64,000 bases of DNA from Georgenia satyanarayanai (lineage in GTDB: Bacteria; Actinomycetota; Actinomycetes; Actinomycetales; Actinomycetaceae). The notes under the pieces are model-generated. The model made no database searches. It was not told where the DNA came from and worked only from the letters and a program-made list of their open reading frames with translations. Position numbers and translations under genes: made by a program. Of the stretch, positions 37,445 through 46,749 are shown piece after piece. Positions within the stretch are counted from its first letter, which is position 1. Every line of letters starts with the position of its first letter. The DNA is taken from positions 62,001 through 126,000 of the forward strand of contig NZ_VUKC01000004.1 of assembly GCF_009193135.1 (NCBI RefSeq), written 5' to 3'.

Positions 37445-38794
37445 ATGACAACCACACGCACACCACGGATCACAGCCCGCAGACGCAGTGTCCTCGCGGC
37501 CGCGACGGCCACCGCCGTCGTCGTCCTCGCGGCATGCGGCGGGGGTCAGACACCCGAGGACGTCGCCGGTGGCGGCGGCGAGCCGAGCGAGGCACCGGAG
37601 TTCACCGGGGAGTACACCGGACCGGCGGTCCAGCTCAACTACTGGAACGGCTTCACCGGCGGTGACGGACCCTTCATGCAGGAGCTCGTCGACCAGTTCA
37701 ACGCCGAGCACGAGAACATCACCGTCGTTCCCAACACCATGGACTGGGCCGACTTCTACCAGCGGCTCCCCGCGGCCGTCACGCAGGGCGAGGGCCCGCA
37801 CGTCGGCGTCATGCACCTGGACCAGCTGGCCACGATGGCGGCCCGCAACGCCATCGTCCCGCTCGACGACCTCGCCGAGGCCCTCGAGCTCACGGCGGAC
37901 GACTTCACCCCGGAGATCTGGGACGCCGGGATCTACGAGGACCAGCGGTACGGGATCCCGCTCGACGTCCACTCCCTGGCGATGTACTACAACACCGAGC
38001 ACTTCGAGGAGGCCGGCATCACCGAGCCGCCCACCGACGAGGCCTCCTTCATGGAGGCGCTCGACGCGCTCCAGGCTGCCGGGTTCGAGACCCCGTTCTG
38101 GATGCCCCAGCTGTGGCCGAGCCACCTCATGTGGCTCTCCCTCGCCTGGCAGAACGGCGAGCAGGTGTACGCCGAGGACGGCTCCGCGGCGATGTACGAC
38201 TCCCCGGGCGGGGTCGAGGCGCTGGAGTGGCAGCGCTCGATCATCGAGCAGGGCTACAGCCCCAACGACGTCGCCATCGACTCCCAGTACATCGCCTTCA
38301 AGAACGGTGAGAACTCCATCACCTGGGACGGCATCTGGCAGATCAACGACCTCGAGGCCGAGGAGGTGCCCTACGGCATCGCCCCGGTCCCGCAGATCGG
38401 CGACGAGGCCGCCGTCTGGGCCAACTCCCACCACTTCTTCATGAGCCGGCAGGCGACCGAGGACGAGAACCTCGCCGCTGCCTCGCAGGTGTTCATCGCG
38501 TGGATGTCCGAGCAGTCGGCCACCTGGGCCGGCTCGGGCCTCATCCCCGCGCGCCTGTCCGTGCGCGAGAGCGGCGTGCTCGACGACATGCCCCAGCGGG
38601 TCATCGCCGAGCAGATCGACACCATGCGGTTCCTGCCGCCCGTCCCGGGTGTCGGCACCGTCCAGGCCGAGGCGCTGGAGCCGGCGATCGCCGACGCGGT
38701 CCTCGGCAACACCCCGCCGTCCGAGGCGCTGGGCACCGCGGCCGAGCAGGGCACCAACCTCATGGAGCAGAACCTCGAGAGCTTCGGAGGCTGA
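37445..38794 (+). CDS. Sugar ABC transporter substrate-binding lipoprotein (family 1)
   Basis: A 449-residue lipoprotein; the ATG lies 8 nt after AGGGGG. The signal has a twin-Arg-like RRRSVL before the hydrophobic run and the lipobox VVLAACGG. COG1653 domain: LNYWNGFTGGDGPFMQELVD, FNAEHENITVVPNTMDWADF, GPHVGVMHLDQLATMAARNA, YGIPLDVHSLAMYYNTEHF and FKNGENSITWDGIWQINDLE. It should capture an arabino- or xylo-oligosaccharide, judged by the two GH43 genes in the same operon. Confidence 0.94.
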   Translation: MTTTRTPRITARRRSVLAAATATAVVVLAACGGGQTPEDVAGGGGEPSEAPEFTGEYTGPAVQLNYWNGFTGGDGPFMQELVDQFNAEHENITVVPNTMDWADFYQRLPAAVTQGEGPHVGVMHLDQLATMAARNAIVPLDDLAEALELTADDFTPEIWDAGIYEDQRYGIPLDVHSLAMYYNTEHFEEAGITEPPTDEASFMEALDALQAAGFETPFWMPQLWPSHLMWLSLAWQNGEQVYAEDGSAAMYDSPGGVEALEWQRSIIEQGYSPNDVAIDSQYIAFKNGENSITWDGIWQINDLEAEEVPYGIAPVPQIGDEAAVWANSHHFFMSRQATEDENLAAASQVFIAWMSEQSATWAGSGLIPARLSVRESGVLDDMPQRVIAEQIDTMRFLPPVPGVGTVQAEALEPAIADAVLGNTPPSEALGTAAEQGTNLMEQNLESFGG

Positions 38795-38796
38795 CG

Positions 38797-39744
38797 ATGT
38801 CCCCCACCGTCGCGCCTCCGCGCAGCGAGGAGGGGCTGCGGGAGGGGCGACGGCGTGGCATCCCGGTGCACGGGAAGGCGACGCCGTGGCTCTTCCTCGC
38901 CCCGTACCTCGTCCTGTTCCTCGGCTTCGTCGTCGCGCCGATCGTCGTCGGCGCGTGGATCAGCCTGCACCGGTGGGACTACACCCTGCCGAACAAGCCC
39001 TTCGTCGGGCTGGACAACTACACCCAGCTGTTCGACACGAGCTCCATCGCCGCGGCCCAGTTCTGGGACGCGATGGAGGCGACGGCGATCTTCACCGTGT
39101 TCAGCGTGCCGTTGCTGCTCACGGTGCCGCTCGCCGTCGCGCTCGTCATGAACATGAAGTTCAAGGGCCGGACCTTCTTCCGGGCCGTCTACTTCGCCCC
39201 CTACGTCCTGGGTGTCGCGGTCGTGGCGATCCTGTGGCGCTACCTGCTCGACAACAACATCGGCCTCGTCAACCACTACCTCGGCCTCCTCGGCCTGCCC
39301 GACGACATCCCGTGGCTCACCTCGAGCCCCGCGGTGTGGGTGAGCCTCGTCGGGGTCACCGTCTGGTGGACCCTCGGCTTCAACGCCGTCATCTACCTCG
39401 CCGCGCTGCAGGACATCCCCGGCGAGCTGTACGAGGCGGCCCGCGTGGACGGCGCCAACCGCTGGCAGCAGTTCCGCAACGTCACGCTCCCGGGGCTGCG
39501 GCCGGTGCTCGCGTTCATCACGACGATCACCATCATCGCCTCGGCGAACATGTTCGGGCAGTCCTACCTCATGACGTCCGGCGGTCCCGGCCGCGAGACC
39601 CGCACGGCGATCTACCAGATCGCCGAGACGGGCCTGCGCAACTTCCAGATGGGCAGCGCCGCCGCGATGAGCTACGTGCTCACCGTGGCGCTCATGGCGC
39701 TGAGCATCGTCGTGTTCTGGATCTTCCGTGAGCGGAAGGGATGA
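38797..39744 (+). CDS. Sugar ABC transporter permease (MalF-like)
   Basis: A 315-residue permease starting 2 bases after the binding-protein stop. Six helices follow a basic N-terminus. The EAA loop is YEAARVDGANRWQQFRNVTL, and SGGPGRETRTAIYQIAETGL is the usual MalF-type block before the last helix. No ATPase is encoded in this operon, so a shared ATPase is assumed. It overlaps the following permease by 4 bases. Confidence 0.94.
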   Translation: MSPTVAPPRSEEGLREGRRRGIPVHGKATPWLFLAPYLVLFLGFVVAPIVVGAWISLHRWDYTLPNKPFVGLDNYTQLFDTSSIAAAQFWDAMEATAIFTVFSVPLLLTVPLAVALVMNMKFKGRTFFRAVYFAPYVLGVAVVAILWRYLLDNNIGLVNHYLGLLGLPDDIPWLTSSPAVWVSLVGVTVWWTLGFNAVIYLAALQDIPGELYEAARVDGANRWQQFRNVTLPGLRPVLAFITTITIIASANMFGQSYLMTSGGPGRETRTAIYQIAETGLRNFQMGSAAAMSYVLTVALMALSIVVFWIFRERKG

Positions 39745-40616
39745 CGATGGCCACCACCACCACCACCGCGGCCCCGGCCGCGACCCGGCGGACACCGGTC
39801 GGGCGCGTCGTCCTGCGCTACGTCGTCCTCGGGCTGCTCGCCCTCCTGTTCATCAGCCCGCTCATCTACATGCTTGTCACGTCGTTCAAGACGCGGGGCG
39901 AGGCCGCCGGGTACCCCCCGACGTGGATCCCCGACCCACCGACCACCGCCGCCTACGAGTCGATCCTCAACGCCCCCGGCACGCCGGTGCTGCGGTGGTT
40001 CGCCAACAGCCTCGGCGCGGCGGCGGCGAACGCGGCGCTCGTCGTCACGACGTCGACGCTCGCCGGCTTCGCCCTGGCGCGGATGCACTTCCGCGGGCGC
40101 AGCCTCGTCTTCGCGGCCGTCGTCGGCACGCTGTTCGTGCCCCCGGTCATCCTCATCATCCCCAACTACCTCATCGTCGGGGAGCTGGCCTGGCTCAACA
40201 CCCTGCTCGCGGTCATCGTGCCCACCGCGGCGTCCGCGTTCGGGGTGTTCTTCATGCGCCAGTTCTTCATCAGCCTCCCCGGCGAGCTCGAGGAGGCGGC
40301 CCGGCTCGACGGCGCCAACCAGTGGCAGGCGTTCTACAAGGTCGCCCTGCCGCTCGCCCGCCCGGCGCTCGCCACCCTCGCGCTGCTCGCGTTCCTCACC
40401 AACTGGAACGACTTCCTCTGGCCCGTCTACGTGCTGTTCAGCCCCGACGTCCAGACGCTGCCGGCGGGACTGTCCACCCTGCAGTCGGCCAACGCCGTGC
40501 GCTACGACCTCCTCATGGCCGGTGCCGTCATCGCGAGCATCCCGGTGCTGGCGATGTACGTCTTCCTCCAGCGCTACATCATCGAGGGCGTCTCCCGCTC
40601 GGGGCTCAAGGGATGA
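39741..40616 (+). CDS. Sugar ABC transporter permease (MalG-like)
   Basis: A 291-residue permease. An in-frame ATG two codons later could also be the start. Six helices. The EAA loop is EEAARLDGANQWQAFYKVAL, preceded by FGVFFMRQFFISLPGE. The gene is coupled at both ends: it overlaps the MalF-like gene and, at its stop, the start of the GH43 lipoprotein. Confidence 0.94.
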   Translation: MTMATTTTTAAPAATRRTPVGRVVLRYVVLGLLALLFISPLIYMLVTSFKTRGEAAGYPPTWIPDPPTTAAYESILNAPGTPVLRWFANSLGAAAANAALVVTTSTLAGFALARMHFRGRSLVFAAVVGTLFVPPVILIIPNYLIVGELAWLNTLLAVIVPTAASAFGVFFMRQFFISLPGELEEAARLDGANQWQAFYKVALPLARPALATLALLAFLTNWNDFLWPVYVLFSPDVQTLPAGLSTLQSANAVRYDLLMAGAVIASIPVLAMYVFLQRYIIEGVSRSGLKG

Positions 40617-41608
40617 GGCGCCCGGGCACGACGACGGCGCTCGCCTGCGTCGTCGTGCTCGCCGCCTGCGGGGGCGGGCAGGAGGTGACGGACGACGACG
40701 CCGCCACGCCCGCGCCGTCGTCGTCCGCGCCCGCCGCGGATGTCAACCCCGTCATCGCCGACGACTTCCCCGACCCCGACGTCCTCGAGGTCGGCGGCGT
40801 CTACTACGCCTACGGGACCAACGGGAACCTGCGCAACGTGCGGGTCGCCCGCTCCACGGACCTGGAGGAGTGGGAGCTGCTCGAGGACGCGCTGCCGGAC
40901 CTGCCGAGCTGGGTGATCCCCGGCAAGACGTGGGCGCCGGAGGTCACCGAGCTCGACGACGGCAGCTTCGCGCTCTACTTCACCGCGACCAACTTCGACC
41001 CGTACGCGCAGTGCGTGGGCGTCGCGACGGCGGACACGCCCGAGGGGCCCTTCACCGTCGTGGGCGAGGAGATGCTCGTGTGCCCGGAGGAGGAGGGCGG
41101 CGCGATCGACGCCTCGACCTTCGTCGACAGCGACGGCACCCGCTACCTGCTGTGGAAGAACGACGGCAACGCGGTGGGCGTCGACACCTGGCTGTACCTC
41201 GCGCCGCTCACGGCCGACGGGCTCACGCTCGACGGTGAGGCGGTGCGGCTGGTCCAGCAGGACCAGGACTGGGAGGGGCACCTCGTCGAGGCGCCCACGC
41301 TGGTGGAGCGGGACGGCACCTACGTGCTGCTCTACTCGGCGAACGACTACGGCGGCGAGCAGTACGCCGTCGGGTACGCGACGGCCGACGCCGTCGACGG
41401 CCCCTACACCAAGGCCGACGGGCCGCTGCTCACCACCGACGCCACCGACGGCCGGTTCATCGGCCCCGGCGGGCAGGACGTGGTGACGGCGCCCGACGGC
41501 ACCGACCGGCTCGTCTTCCACTCGTGGTACGGCGACACCTCCTACCGCGGCGTCAACGTCCTGCCGCTGGAGTGGGACGACGGACGTCCCGTCGTCGTCG
41601 TGCCCTGA
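40613..41608 (+). CDS. GH43 family glycoside hydrolase, lipoprotein
   Basis: A 331-residue protein with lipobox VVLAACGG, so anchored on the outer face of the membrane. The five-bladed propeller of GH43 shows its three acidic residues: Asp in DDFPDPDVLEV, Asp in GGAIDASTFVD and Glu in GHLVEAPTLVE. WAPEVTELDDGSFALYFTAT is another family block. GH43 enzymes remove arabinose or xylose or cut arabinan by inversion. Being coupled to the importer, it probably trims oligosaccharides at the cell surface just before uptake. Confidence 0.92.
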   Translation: MRRPGTTTALACVVVLAACGGGQEVTDDDAATPAPSSSAPAADVNPVIADDFPDPDVLEVGGVYYAYGTNGNLRNVRVARSTDLEEWELLEDALPDLPSWVIPGKTWAPEVTELDDGSFALYFTATNFDPYAQCVGVATADTPEGPFTVVGEEMLVCPEEEGGAIDASTFVDSDGTRYLLWKNDGNAVGVDTWLYLAPLTADGLTLDGEAVRLVQQDQDWEGHLVEAPTLVERDGTYVLLYSANDYGGEQYAVGYATADAVDGPYTKADGPLLTTDATDGRFIGPGGQDVVTAPDGTDRLVFHSWYGDTSYRGVNVLPLEWDDGRPVVVVP

Positions 41609-41631
41609 CACACCCCTCGGAGGAATCAACG

Positions 41632-43893
41632 ATGAGACACCGAAGGATCACGGCGGCCCTGGGCGCGGCGGCGCTCGCGCTCGGCCTGGCGGCGGGAGCG
41701 GCGGTGCCGGCGCTGGCCGGCGACGCGCCCGACGCACCCGGCGCCACCCACTACACGAACCCGGTGACGGCGGACTTCGCCGACACCTACGCCGACCCCG
41801 CGATCATCCGCGGCAAGGACGGCTGGTGGTACCTCTACGCGACGTCCGACCCGCTCGTCGAGGGCGGGGAGTTCGGGCTCATGCACGTGTCGCGGTCGCG
41901 CGACATGGTGGACTGGGAGTACCGCGGCACCATCCTCGACGAGGGGTCCGCGCCCGACTGGGCCACCGACACCTCCTTCTTCTGGGCGCCGGACATCCGG
42001 TACGTCGACGGCCAGTACGTCCTGTACTTCACGGTGACCGACACGACGCTCAACCCGGGCGACGACTCCGCGATCGGGGCGGCGACGGCGCCGACGCCGG
42101 AAGGGCCCTGGACGCCGGTGGCCGAGCCGGTGGTCCCGCCGCGGCCCGACGGCGGCGGCTTCTTCTGGACCTTCGACCCCTCGATGCTCGCCGACGACGA
42201 CGGCAGCCGGTACCTCTACTACGGCAGCTACTACGGGGGCCTGTGGGTGACCGAGCTCGACGAGAGCGGGCTGCGCGCCGTAGGTGAGGCGACGCAGGTG
42301 GCGATCAACGACAAGTTCGAGGGCGCCTACGTGCTCAAGCGGGACGGGTACTACTACCTCATGGCGTCCTCGGCGAACTGCTGCGCGGGCCCCTCGACGG
42401 GGTACAGCGTCTTCGCCGGGCGCTCGGAGAGCCCGCGCGGGCCCTTCGTCGACCACGAGGGCGTCTCGCTGCTCGACACGCGGCCGGGCGGGACCCAGGT
42501 GCTCGTCCAGAACGGCAACCGGTGGATCGGGGCGGGGCACCACACCGTCGTCACCGACCTGTCGGGCCAGGACTGGATCTACTACCACGCCATCGACCGC
42601 GAGGACCCGTGGCTGGCCGAGCCCGGCGGCATCAACCGCCGGCCCACGCTGCTGGACCGGCTCGACTGGGTGGACGGCTGGCCGGTCACCCGGGCCGGGG
42701 CCGGCCCGAGCGAGGGCGAGCAGCCCGGGCCGGTGGCCGGGTCGCTGCTCGGCCTCACGGTCGACGACCCCGCCGAGGGGCGCGCGCTGCGCGGCTCCTT
42801 CCGCCCCGACGTCGACGAGCAGTCCGGGGACCACGCGCTGGTCCGCGGGCGGGTGTGGACTGCCGAGCCGGCGCCGGAGGAGGTGCACGTCGAGCTCGAC
42901 CTGCGCACGCGGCGCACCGGGCCGTTCTTCGTGTGGGTGGGCCGCGGGTCCAACCGCATCGAGGTCACCGTGGACCCGGGCGGGCGTGAGCTGCACGTCG
43001 AGTACGGCCACGGGCGCTTCCAGGAGGAGACGGCCGTGCCGATCCCGGCCACCTACGACCTGTCGGTGTGGACGGCGCTGCAGGTGCACGTCGTCGAGGG
43101 CGAGGTGCGGGCGCGGCTGAGCGAGTCACGGCTCGGTGACTCCATCGCCGAGGTGTCGCTCGAGCTGCGGCCCGGGATCCTGCGCTCCGCGCCGGTGGAG
43201 TTCCGCGGCACGGGCGTCCACGTCGACAACCTCTCGGTCAACGAGGCCCACGAGCCGGTGACCGAGCGCGTGCCGGAGCCCGCTGCCGGTGCGGTGCTCG
43301 TCGAGGAGGACTTCTCCGACGCCGGGCTCGAGGGCTGGTCGTGGGTCCGCGAGGACCCGGCGGCCCGCGTCGAGGACGGCGCGCTGGTGTGGCCGCTCAC
43401 CGGGGCCGACCTCGTGGGCGCCGGTGGTTCGGGCGGGCTGCTCCTGCGCGAGCCCCCGGCCGGGGACTGGATCGTCGAGACGAAGGTCGATCTCGACCTC
43501 GGGGACACGGAGGTCCGCAACTTCCAGCAGGCCGGGCTCATCGTCCACGCCGACGACGACAACTTCCTGCGCCTGGGGCACGTGGCCATCTGGAACACGC
43601 GGCAGGTGGAGTTCGGCAAGGAGACCCTGCAGGACGGCTTCCTGACCTGGGGTGGCCACACGAGCGGCCCGCCGGCCGAGACGACGTGGCTGCGCATCCA
43701 CCACACGACCAACGACGCCGGCGAGCACCTGTACCGCTCGGCGTTCTCGACCGACGGCGAGTCCTGGCGCTGGGGCGCCACGTGGACCCTCCCCGCCGGC
43801 AGGGACGCGCGCGTCGGCCTCTACACCGGCGGCGGCGCCCAGCCCGAGGCCGAGGCCGTCTTCGACTACGTGCGGTTCCTCGACGCGAGCTGA
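41632..43893 (+). CDS. Secreted GH43 enzyme with C-terminal sandwich domain
   Basis: A 753-residue exported protein. The ATG has GGAGGAA 6 nt upstream, and the signal peptide ends near PALAGD (about 29). The GH43 propeller covers roughly 38-385: FADTYADPAIIRGKDGWWYL (Asp base), WTFDPSMLADDDGSRYLYYG (second Asp) and FEGAYVLKRDGYYYLMAS (Glu acid). GGTQVLVQNGNRWIGAGHHT and YYHAIDRED are typical of endo-arabinanases. Residues about 420-530 form a middle beta-domain. Residues about 560-750 form a DUF1349/GH43_C2-like sandwich (NFQQAGLIVHADDDNFLRLG), similar to a domain in the dehydrogenase at 12474. It is probably an extracellular arabinanase; substrate choice is inferred. Confidence 0.9.
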   Translation: MRHRRITAALGAAALALGLAAGAAVPALAGDAPDAPGATHYTNPVTADFADTYADPAIIRGKDGWWYLYATSDPLVEGGEFGLMHVSRSRDMVDWEYRGTILDEGSAPDWATDTSFFWAPDIRYVDGQYVLYFTVTDTTLNPGDDSAIGAATAPTPEGPWTPVAEPVVPPRPDGGGFFWTFDPSMLADDDGSRYLYYGSYYGGLWVTELDESGLRAVGEATQVAINDKFEGAYVLKRDGYYYLMASSANCCAGPSTGYSVFAGRSESPRGPFVDHEGVSLLDTRPGGTQVLVQNGNRWIGAGHHTVVTDLSGQDWIYYHAIDREDPWLAEPGGINRRPTLLDRLDWVDGWPVTRAGAGPSEGEQPGPVAGSLLGLTVDDPAEGRALRGSFRPDVDEQSGDHALVRGRVWTAEPAPEEVHVELDLRTRRTGPFFVWVGRGSNRIEVTVDPGGRELHVEYGHGRFQEETAVPIPATYDLSVWTALQVHVVEGEVRARLSESRLGDSIAEVSLELRPGILRSAPVEFRGTGVHVDNLSVNEAHEPVTERVPEPAAGAVLVEEDFSDAGLEGWSWVREDPAARVEDGALVWPLTGADLVGAGGSGGLLLREPPAGDWIVETKVDLDLGDTEVRNFQQAGLIVHADDDNFLRLGHVAIWNTRQVEFGKETLQDGFLTWGGHTSGPPAETTWLRIHHTTNDAGEHLYRSAFSTDGESWRWGATWTLPAGRDARVGLYTGGGAQPEAEAVFDYVRFLDAS

Positions 43894-43911: not shown

Positions 43912-43967
43912 CGCCGAGAGCTGAGCTGTCGCCCGGGCACTACCCCGGAACAGCTCAGCTCTCGGCG
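43912..43967. terminator. Bidirectional terminator, perfect 18-bp stem
   Basis: CGCCGAGAGCTGAGCTGT and ACAGCTCAGCTCTCGGCG pair perfectly around a 20-base loop that can itself pair (CCGGG/CCCGG). It lies between the convergent GH43 and OmpA-domain genes. Confidence 0.85.
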
Positions 43968-43990: not shown

Positions 43991-45175
43991 CTAGTCGAAC
44001 TTGATGGTGATGACGACGCGGCGGTTCTGGGCGCGGCCCTCGTCGGTGGTGTTGTCCGCGCGGGGGTGGGCGAAGCCGTAGCCGGCGGTGGTGACGAGAC
44101 CGGCGTCGAGGCCGCCGTGGTCGACGAGCCAGGTGGCCACCGCCTCGGCGCGGCGCTCGGACAGGTCGAGGTTGTGCTCCTCGGTGCCGACGTCGTCGGT
44201 GTGCCCCTCGACGACGACGGCAGCCGGCACGCCGCGCTGCTCGATGTCCGCCACGACCGCCTCGAGCGCGGCCTCGGCCTCGGGCCGGATCTCGTCCTCG
44301 TTGTTGCCGAAGAGGACGTCGCCCTCGCTGCTGTAGGAGACGGACTCGTCCTCGTCCGTCACCTCGACGTCGTCGGTGCCCTCGAGGAGGTAGCCCTGGA
44401 GAGACGCACCGGGGACGCTCTCGCCGGTGACCGAGGCGCCGGGGACGGAGACGCCGGGGATCGACGCGCCCGGCACGTGGCCGTCGTCGAGGTACTGCAC
44501 CGAGCGGTAGGCCACCGACTGGTAGGAGACGTCCTGGTAGCCGGCCGCCCGGTAGATCGCCGGGCGGTAGACGGCGGAGACGTAGGTGCCCTCGCCCTCC
44601 TCGCTCTGGCAGACCTCCTCGGCGGAGGCCCCCTCGACGACGACGTCGGGCCGTGCGACGCCGTCGACGACGATCTCCTCGAGGACGGTGCCGTCCGGCA
44701 GCGTCACTTCGGGCAGCACCCGCGCGGGCAGGGAGTAGCCGGGGATGAAGGCACCGCTGATCTCCACCGCCCCGAGGCAGCCGCCGGGAGCGTCGTACTC
44801 GACGATGCAGCCGCGGTCGATGACCCGCTCGGGGATCGTCACCGCCTCGATGACCTGGGCAGGGACGGTCTCCCCGCCGAACTCGAACGCCTCGACGACG
44901 ACCTCGGGGATCACCTGTGCCGCGATGACCTCGTCCTCGAGCATGGTGACCGTCTTGCCCTCGGCGGGCTCGCACTGCGGGAAACGCTCGCCGGCCGGCG
45001 CGGACGTCGGCGCGTCCTCGGGCTCGTCGGTGGGGGCCGGCTTCTCCTCGGCGGCGCTGTGCGTGGCCGACGGCGTGGCGGCGGGAGGCGCGTCGGGCTC
45101 GGGCTCCCCGGAGCAGCCGGTGAGGACGAGCACCCCCGCCGCGAGGACCGACATCGAGACGCGCGCTGACCGCAT
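43991..45175 (-). CDS. OmpA-domain lipoprotein with pentapeptide-like repeats
   Basis: A 394-residue lipoprotein (lipobox VLTGCSGE) with an Ala/Pro/Glu-rich linker. The middle part holds two runs with a five-residue period: VYRPA-IYRAA-GYQDV-SYQSV-AYRSV (about 200-225) and GASIP-GVSVP-GASVT-GESVP-GASLQ (about 233-258). Such patterns can build a small beta-helix. The C-terminus (about 285-394) is an OmpA-like peptidoglycan-binding domain: GDVLFGNNEDEIRPEAEAAL, VVEGHTDDVGTEEHNLDLSE, RRAEAVATWLV and GRAQNRRVVITI. This is unusual for a Gram-positive lineage, where it would link membrane and wall. Function unknown. Confidence 0.88.
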   Translation of the reverse strand: MRSARVSMSVLAAGVLVLTGCSGEPEPDAPPAATPSATHSAAEEKPAPTDEPEDAPTSAPAGERFPQCEPAEGKTVTMLEDEVIAAQVIPEVVVEAFEFGGETVPAQVIEAVTIPERVIDRGCIVEYDAPGGCLGAVEISGAFIPGYSLPARVLPEVTLPDGTVLEEIVVDGVARPDVVVEGASAEEVCQSEEGEGTYVSAVYRPAIYRAAGYQDVSYQSVAYRSVQYLDDGHVPGASIPGVSVPGASVTGESVPGASLQGYLLEGTDDVEVTDEDESVSYSSEGDVLFGNNEDEIRPEAEAALEAVVADIEQRGVPAAVVVEGHTDDVGTEEHNLDLSERRAEAVATWLVDHGGLDAGLVTTAGYGFAHPRADNTTDEGRAQNRRVVITIKFD

Positions 45176-45714: not shown

Positions 45715-46749
45715 ATGAAGGCACTGCAGTACCGCACGATCGGCGCCGGCCCCGAGGTCGTCGAGATCGAGACCCCCGAGCCCGGCCCCGGCCAGGTGCG
45801 CCTCAAGGTCACCGCCGCCGGCGTCTGCCACTCCGACTCGTTCATCATGAGCCTGCCCGAGGAGCAGTACATCTACGGGCTGCCGCTCACCCTGGGTCAC
45901 GAGGGCGCCGGCGTCGTCGACAAGCTCGGCGACGGCGTCACGGGCCTCGAGGTCGGCACGTCCGTCGCCGTCTACGGACCGTGGGGCTGCGGCCACTGCT
46001 ACATGTGCGCGCAGGGCAGGGAGAACTACTGCGAGCGGGCCGGCGAGCTGGGCATCGCCCCGCCCGGGCTCGGTGCGCCCGGCGCGATGGCCGAGTACAT
46101 GATCGTCGACGACCCGCGCCACCTCGTGCCCCTCGGTGACCTCGACCCCGTCCAGAACGTCTCGCTCACCGACGCCGGCCTCACGCCGTACCACGCGATC
46201 AAGGGCTCCCTGGACAAGCTCGTGCCGGGCTCTGTCGCCGTCGTCATCGGTGCGGGCGGGCTCGGGCACGTGGGGATCCAGATCCTCCGCGCGATCACCC
46301 CCGCGACCGTCGTCGCCCTCGACCTCGCCGAGGACAAGCTGGCGCTCGCCACGGACGTCGGTGCCCACCACGCGTTCCGCTCCGACGAGGACGCCGTGGA
46401 GCAGGTCCGCGCGCTCACTGGCGGGCGTGGGGTGGCCGCCGTCCTCGACTTCGTCGGGGCCCAGCCGACGATGGAGCTCGGCGCCAAGATGGTGGCCGTC
46501 GGCGGTGACCAGGTGCTCGTCGGGGTCGGCAGCGGCAGTCTTCCCGTCGGCATGCTGGACCGGCCCTACGAGTCCCAGGTGCGCGCGCCGTACTGGGGCT
46601 ACCGCCACGAGCTCTTCGAGGTGCTCAACCTCGCGCGGACCGGCGCCGTCCACGTCGAGACCGAGGTCTTCTCCCTCGACGACGCGCCGAAGGCCTACGA
46701 GAAGCTGCACGAGGGCACGCTGCGCGGCCGCGCCGTCATCGTCCCGTAG
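45715..46749 (+). CDS. Zinc-dependent alcohol dehydrogenase (MDR family)
   Basis: A 344-residue enzyme with GAAGGAGG upstream of the ATG. Catalytic zinc ligands: Cys in AAGVCHSDS, His and Glu in GHEGAGVV, and a later ligand. Structural zinc Cys cluster: GCGHCYMCAQGRENYC. Cofactor-binding loop: VIGAGGLGHVGIQ (about 178-190), with Asp at the end of the next strand (VVALDLAED), favouring NAD over NADP. It oxidises primary or secondary alcohols or reduces aldehydes; the substrate is not known. A strong terminator hairpin follows 2 bases after the stop. Confidence 0.93.
   Translation: MKALQYRTIGAGPEVVEIETPEPGPGQVRLKVTAAGVCHSDSFIMSLPEEQYIYGLPLTLGHEGAGVVDKLGDGVTGLEVGTSVAVYGPWGCGHCYMCAQGRENYCERAGELGIAPPGLGAPGAMAEYMIVDDPRHLVPLGDLDPVQNVSLTDAGLTPYHAIKGSLDKLVPGSVAVVIGAGGLGHVGIQILRAITPATVVALDLAEDKLALATDVGAHHAFRSDEDAVEQVRALTGGRGVAAVLDFVGAQPTMELGAKMVAVGGDQVLVGVGSGSLPVGMLDRPYESQVRAPYWGYRHELFEVLNLARTGAVHVETEVFSLDDAPKAYEKLHEGTLRGRAVIVP

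Follow-up and report, generated by a model that had tools for sequence, protein, structure and literature searches.

The 64,000-nucleotide stretch of Georgenia satyanarayanai DNA analyzed here (the window) carries a gene for a lipoprotein in which runs of five-residue repeats lie between a lipobox and an OmpA domain. The question raised by this locus is what such a repeat region might be, and what it might do in a Gram-positive lineage. The gene is a 394-residue open reading frame with an ATG start on the minus strand (43991..45175), and its features are as follows.

43991..45175, minus strand: lipoprotein gene, 394 amino acids (open reading frame; two other Georgenia genomes, G001 and G002, have full-length matches at 83% identity)
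45113..45175, minus strand: signal peptide and lipobox (M...VLVLTGC), with Cys21 (45113-45115; invariant in five Georgenia rows) as the predicted lipid anchor
44978..45112, minus strand: acidic linker rich in Pro/Ser/Thr/Glu, residues 22-66 (net charge -8; disordered side of the charge-hydropathy line)
44807..44974, minus strand: block A, residues 68-123, consisting of the first invariant Cys, about eight pentads and the second invariant Cys
44777..44809, minus strand: Cys123...Cys133 segment (APGGC; spacing of 10 in 39/39 rows)
44609..44776, minus strand: block B, residues 134-189, pentads up to the fourth invariant Cys (VCQ)
44489..44572, minus strand: block C, the Tyr run, residues 202-229 (lag-5 p = 0.0002; strands at model residues 137-165)
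44390..44479, minus strand: block D, the Gly/Ser run, residues 233-262 (lag-5 p = 0.0002; strands at model residues 168-199)
44021..44314, minus strand: OmpA domain, residues 288-385; Asp327 and Arg342 occupy the places of the DAP-binding pair (Pfam PF00691, E 2.8e-20)

The lipobox VLTG-C21 (VLTGC, 17-21) was read by eye from the sequence, and PF00691 matched the window protein at 72.9 bits (cut-off 27.2); at E <= 10, its Pfam matches were limited to OmpA, MFS18 and DUF3558. The protein was filed as an OmpA-domain lipoprotein. As lipobox and PF00691 were both present and the relatives proved to be Actinomycetota, the original prediction of an OmpA-domain lipoprotein in a Gram-positive lineage was borne out.

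The five-residue period was assessed by counting identities at fixed lags and comparing them with shuffled sequences. Across residues 68-262, lag-5 identities numbered 45 (16.1 in shuffles) and lag-10 identities 44; lags 4 and 6 gave 11 and 12 identities, respectively, each below its own shuffles. The Tyr run (VYRPA IYRAA GYQDV SYQSV AYRSV QY, residues 202-228) and the Gly/Ser run (GASIP GVSVP..., starting at residue 236) that had been noticed at first are real: lag-5 identities were 12 in the Tyr block (200-230) and 13 in the Gly/Ser block (233-262), compared with 2.5 in shuffles for either, and p was 0.0002 in both cases, which is the floor of 5000 shuffles. Block B (134-189) was also periodic (11 identities vs 4.5 in shuffles, p = 0.0036). 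Block A (68-122) was weak by identity (6 vs 4.6, p = 0.31), and its hydrophobicity was periodic (p = 0.023). The claim of two different runs was thus too narrow, the two being two of four blocks in a single period-5 region (68-262); two separate spacers were rejected on the ground that the period is continuous across the region. A charge-hydropathy test, which misplaces the OmpA domain itself, classed residues 68-262 as folded and the linker as disordered.

The window protein was then aligned with 38 relatives (alignment A5, 39 sequences). A Pfam OmpA match at E <= 1 was found in 39/39 rows, and four Cys residues were invariant in 39/39, the second and third always being spaced by 10. Blocks A and D and the first half of block B shared a code of V (or another residue), a polar residue, I/V, Pro and Ala/Gly; outside the Tyr run the prevailing pattern is V-x-[IV]-P-[AG]. 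Compared column by column, the 19 pentads of these blocks fit a solenoid core. A hydrophobic residue filled the centre position in 85% of rows or more in 17 pentads (all but columns 30 and 95); at the middle position, no more than 26% of rows were hydrophobic in 18 pentads (all but column 19). Pro occupied the first turn position in 488/700 cells (block A, 182/310; first half of block B, 160/195; block D, 146/195). The second half of block B kept a single conserved Val per pentad and nothing else. The period itself was kept in homologues, as columns 140-160 were exactly 20 apart in 36/39 rows and columns 170-195 exactly 25 apart in 39/39. Length changes by whole pentads were observed (42 to 37 in columns 22-59, 20 to 15 in columns 140-160, and 38 to 28 in columns 86-125), along with others that do not amount to whole pentads (lengths of 44, 30 and 39 in these stretches, and of 17 in block C in two rows); segments 4-22, 125-140 and 160-170 varied freely in length.

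Block C followed an order of its own: I/L/V, Tyr/Ile/Leu, Arg/Gln, Pro/Ser/Ala and, mostly, a small residue. In its five pentads, Arg/Gln was present in 192/192 cells and Tyr in 117/192, with at least four of the five pentads carrying Tyr in 23/39 rows. Tyr had initially been noted at the repeated position; in many relatives its place is held by Ile or Leu, while the next residue is always Arg or Gln, and Tyr was therefore rejected as a signature. Judged by these columns, the Tyr run is the common form of an Arg/Gln ladder. In covariation analysis, mutual information peaked at lags 5, 10, 15 and 20 with mere decay. This pattern would be expected if adjacent pentads change in concert, and it does not tell three- from four-sided coils; coil size was accordingly dropped as a readout. 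As a separate observation, neighbouring pentads of blocks C and D change together in the A5 rows, most strongly at lag 5, a sign of concerted evolution.

The fold of the region was predicted with AlphaFold2 from alignments of differing depth. With 39 rows, the model reached a mean pLDDT of 90.6 and a pTM of 0.76, and contained 29 strands of at least three residues within model residues 18-199. Most of these, the Tyr run included, were spaced by five, with breaks at model residues ∼64-72, 95-103 and 122-136. Eight strands five apart lay in block A and eleven at model residues 143-195. With five Georgenia rows, pLDDT was 48 (∼30 up to residue 60), regular five-spaced strands appeared in block A only, and the Tyr run formed short helices with pLDDT 27-45. 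The 39-row model suggests that the period-5 region is likely a beta-solenoid with five-residue sides, each made of a three-residue strand and a two-residue turn. A new beta-helical spacer, as had been proposed, is thus predicted at high confidence once 38 homologues are added; that part of the proposal still rests on AlphaFold2, which is solenoid-biased for near-perfect repeats. Disorder throughout, together with a period lost in homologues, had been named as the outcome that would speak against such a spacer, and neither was found, although the five-row model was poor (pLDDT 48). When the full model was searched against PDB folds, the matches listed were OmpA-type chains, which masked the fold of the spacer. 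Among the 50 viral fold matches listed, none was named a pentapeptide protein and several carried no name.

In the 39-row model, the strand triplet of block C is x-Tyr-Arg/Gln, followed by a two-residue turn, and so the Arg/Gln would sit on the position that is taken to face inward in the neighbouring blocks. In the phmmer alignment to the pentapeptide protein 2j8k, which is non-significant (E 0.69), Tyr falls on the Leu column instead. We regard this possible register of Arg/Gln as the most unusual point of the finding. The same alignment bears on the original statement that the Tyr run is not a classical A(D/N)Lxx pentapeptide, which was half right: if Tyr is taken as the centre, most of the Georgenia run reads [A/V]-x-Y-[R/Q]-x, and in that non-significant match this pattern lines up with the Leu column of 2j8k, a genuine pentapeptide protein.

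Comparison was next made with the pentapeptide repeat proteins (PF00805, right-handed quadrilateral beta-helix). Shared with them are a five-residue period over many units, a hydrophobic centre with a small or medium hydrophobic residue two positions before it and, in the model, three-residue strands with two-residue turns. The family of the window protein differs in having I/V rather than L/F at the centre, Pro at the first turn position, an Arg/Gln ladder, four Cys, a lipid anchor, an OmpA fusion and no Pfam profile match. A pentapeptide repeat protein is described as having at least eight contiguous five-residue units (excerpt of PMC8145042), and the period 5 across residues 68-262 supplies these. 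The consensus given in the excerpt of PMC7337050 is (A/C/S/V/T/L/I)(D/N/S/K/E/I/R)(L/F)(S/T/R/E/Q/K/V/D)(G/D/E/N/R/Q/K), any strongly hydrophobic centre being allowed; blocks A and D and the first half of block B depart from it, mostly with I/V at the centre and Pro thereafter. Period and strands fit a quadrilateral beta-helix, and the handedness and the number of sides per coil are not visible in the model. No Pfam pentapeptide family was matched at E <= 1 in the 39 rows (14 families listed), nor at E <= 10 in six spacer-only rows, in searches whose HMMER filters may hide weak pentapeptide matches. Because neither profile nor consensus fits and handedness and sides could not be seen, the protein was described as pentapeptide-like and not filed as a pentapeptide repeat protein, though its fold is probably similar.

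The family may nevertheless belong to the pentapeptide repeat superfamily and simply have diverged within it, a serious alternative to which we give somewhat less than an even chance. The strand spacing of the 39-row model speaks for it, as does the fact that the best PDB sequence match of the window spacer was the NP275-NP276 pentapeptide protein (2j8k, E 0.69) and that the sole profile match was 4yfo (E 2.1), which has a five-residue sequence of the A-N-L type. However, neither match is significant; a reversed control sequence reached E 0.18, better than 2j8k, against a chain of a different kind, two f35 relatives hit DsbE (E 0.81 and 0.49), a Georgenia relative hit 7upp (E 0.94), and no pentapeptide family was among the 14 Pfam families listed. 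The closest described parallel is a secreted YjbI-type pentapeptide protein from Caulobacter (PMC12864828), with which the family shares a predicted extracytoplasmic five-residue solenoid and conserved Cys pairs flanking the helix; that protein is from a Gram-negative and has 183 residues, and the excerpt of the paper mentions neither an OmpA domain nor a lipobox. A knotted solenoid paper (PMC13123833) concerns other bacteria, as far as its excerpt goes. Searches of an open-access library listed no description of a lipoprotein that combines a period-5 spacer with an OmpA domain. The family supplies a repeat code that is absent from Pfam.

A further possibility is that the solenoid is an AlphaFold2 artefact and the spacer a Pro/Gly chain, whether flexible, elastin-like or disordered. 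The VPG-V-S repeats do resemble elastin VPGXG, the five-row model had a pLDDT of 48, and the weak Pfam hits were of low-complexity kind (e.g., Extensin_1 in 25/39 rows at E <= 1). Moreover, a solenoid bias of AlphaFold2 is documented: according to the excerpt of PMC11795689, confident and unrealistic solenoids are produced for perfect repeats, with buried charge (Glu, Asp) as a fault of such over-predictions, and the bias may matter for perfect or near-perfect repeats only, imperfect ones having yet to be tested there. The repeats of the window protein are imperfect, and several of the added rows are near-perfect (YRPSLYRPSL). Four invariant Cys residues and fixed spacings in several stretches argue against a disordered chain, as do the alternating core pattern where repeats are imperfect and the composition on the folded side. 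We consider the disordered reading unlikely, and note that a family with imperfect and near-perfect members offers a natural test case for this bias.

At the other end of the protein, Asp327 and Arg342, 15 residues apart and placed by motif and spacing, were invariant in 39 rows. The corresponding pair in A. baumannii OmpA, D271/R286, forms a site that binds DAP (excerpt of PMC6572160), and in PorE an Arg holds the DAP carboxylate (excerpt of PMC7192894). Going by its domain, the OmpA region of the window protein presumably binds peptidoglycan. DNPR is the mark of DAP-type MurE enzymes. Within Georgenia, the motif position was read in the window's own genome, where the sole match over the MurE cut-off (L115, C17) has EEDHRD in place of DNPR and scores as MurE. 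The MurE of the f13 host (L122) has DDPH at the motif position, and DNPR was read in the MurE of hosts from families f35 (three), f45 (one) and f93 (one). The OmpA domain is therefore kept in hosts with and without the DAP-type motif. If the Georgenia wall is of lysine type, the OmpA domain may attach to a non-DAP stem, or its binding may be weak.

Known OmpA proteins were compared as well. Rv0899/OmpATb (PDB 2l26, 2kgw) also has an actinobacterial OmpA domain (2l26, E 1.1e-14). It reportedly uses a BON domain before the OmpA domain as a spacer; no BON match was found in the window protein (Pfam, E <= 10). Pal and the YiaD/YfiB lipoproteins share the lipid anchor plus OmpA domain, and the solved OmpA domains nearest in sequence include those of YfiB and YiaD, but the equivalog scores stayed below the cut-offs (Pal, NCBIfam TIGR02802, 65.5 vs 125.35 bits; YiaD, 102.6 vs 175; YfiB, 98.2 vs 128). 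These lipoproteins are not known to have a pentad region.

Given that lipid anchor and OmpA domain lie at opposite ends of a probable rod, we favour, with some confidence, a lipid-anchored cell-wall tether or ruler that reaches from membrane to wall via this probable solenoid, which would form a stiff rod of some thirty five-residue units. The acyl group would anchor one end in the cytoplasmic membrane, and the OmpA domain would grip peptidoglycan. Between them, the period-5 region is predicted to fold as a beta-solenoid, each side being a three-residue strand plus a two-residue turn; in most blocks, as the columns suggest, V and I/V would point inward and the polar residue outward, with Pro-Gly/Ala at the corner, and disulfides may lock the first half of the rod. 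With a rise of 4.8 Å per coil and an assumed four strands per coil, the 29 strands would give a rod of ∼4 nm, which, together with the 45-residue flexible linker, may set the membrane-to-wall distance. Through its Arg/Gln ladder, the Tyr block could contact a partner or an acidic polymer of the wall. If this is true, monoderm actinobacteria would fix the distance between membrane and wall with a disulfide-locked rod, much as Gram-negatives use Pal-type proteins to link their outer membrane to the wall. We think it rather improbable that the spacer is a solenoid class of its own, with Pro-cornered sides and with an Arg/Gln on each side of the coil in the Tyr block, inside or outside, gripping an acidic wall polymer, so as to make the protein both ruler and clamp. 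Equally doubtful is a role mainly as receptor or scaffold, in which the Arg/Gln ladder and the Tyr/Ile/Leu stack would bind a wall polymer or partner and the OmpA domain would just position the protein: Arg/Gln in 192/192 cells next to a varying Tyr column is in its favour, as are the net charges of the window protein (block A, -9; block B, -8; block C, +1), but no partner gene is conserved at all loci, the widest neighbour cluster reaching 6/21.

The tether candidate belongs to a real, conserved and sparsely spread actinobacterial family. The gene was found in 5/6 Georgenia genomes searched, the sixth (G003) having other OmpA proteins only, and it turns up here and there in genomes from four further actinobacterial families. 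Relatives that carry a name are Georgenia satyanarayanai, Georgenia sp. and Oceanitalea stevensii. In overlapping genome draws, strong spacer matches occurred in 4/297 genomes of its own order (three of them Georgenia, self included), 9/394 of its own class (self included) and 2/396 of the phylum (self included). For the other groups, the counts were 1/24 for family f13, 9/120 for family f35, 33/297 for the order containing f35, 1/61 for family f45 (a second f45 genome came from the class draw) and 1/149 for the class of G1160. These counts leave out spacer hits of E 2e-5 or weaker and of partial length, namely 8/12 matching genomes in its own order, 7/16 in its own class, 2/11 in f35, 1/3 in the phylum, 9/42 in the f35-containing order and 1/2 in the class of G1160. 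The weak-hit sequences that were read (L029-L037, L046-L048, L053, L063, L064 and L068) looked low-complexity or like other proteins; G1344 (E 2e-5, columns 63-191), from the order containing f35, could be a real remnant. Three genomes of that order (G1263, G1308 with an internal stop, and G1332) gave strong hits that lie outside the alignment. In the protein tree, rows grouped by family, with Georgenia and f13 as one starred group (100/98) and f35 weakly supported (79/60). This grouping of rows by family would fit an old descent followed by many losses as well as it would fit rare transfer. A mobile origin was rejected, as the spacer of the window protein had no match in plasmids or phages and a 14-row alignment had none in viral contigs.

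The surroundings of the gene were compared at 21 loci, and no partner gene was common to all. The widest neighbour cluster, an alcohol-dehydrogenase-like gene (45715-46746), was present at 6/21 loci (three Georgenia, one f13 and two f35) at varying distance; it was not accepted as an operon partner and was taken for chance, this gene family being common. Genes for a solute-binding protein, ABC permease and GH43 (37676-43893) adjoin the lipoprotein gene, and their order is kept in three other Georgenia genomes. Two f35 genomes encode another OmpA protein, short and secreted-looking, immediately upstream of the gene and on its strand (L103:6906-7502 and L110:5282-5878). Promoter and terminator scans around the gene found none, the terminator scan allowing loops of 3-8. 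A 16-base perfect inverted repeat with a 20-base loop (arms 43914-43929 and 43950-43965), absent from the list of that scan, lies between the convergent GH43 and lipoprotein genes.

Two groups of weak hits of the spacer profile were also observed. L068, a PPE-like protein, has a 1288-residue open frame with long LPALTLPALNIPA runs that have a Pro-cornered five-residue look (E 4e-4). L046-L048 and L053, apparently Streptomyces-like proteins, carry CALPWLWQGP-type units in repeat and, ahead of an LPDTG end, a run of the five-residue unit VDGTE.
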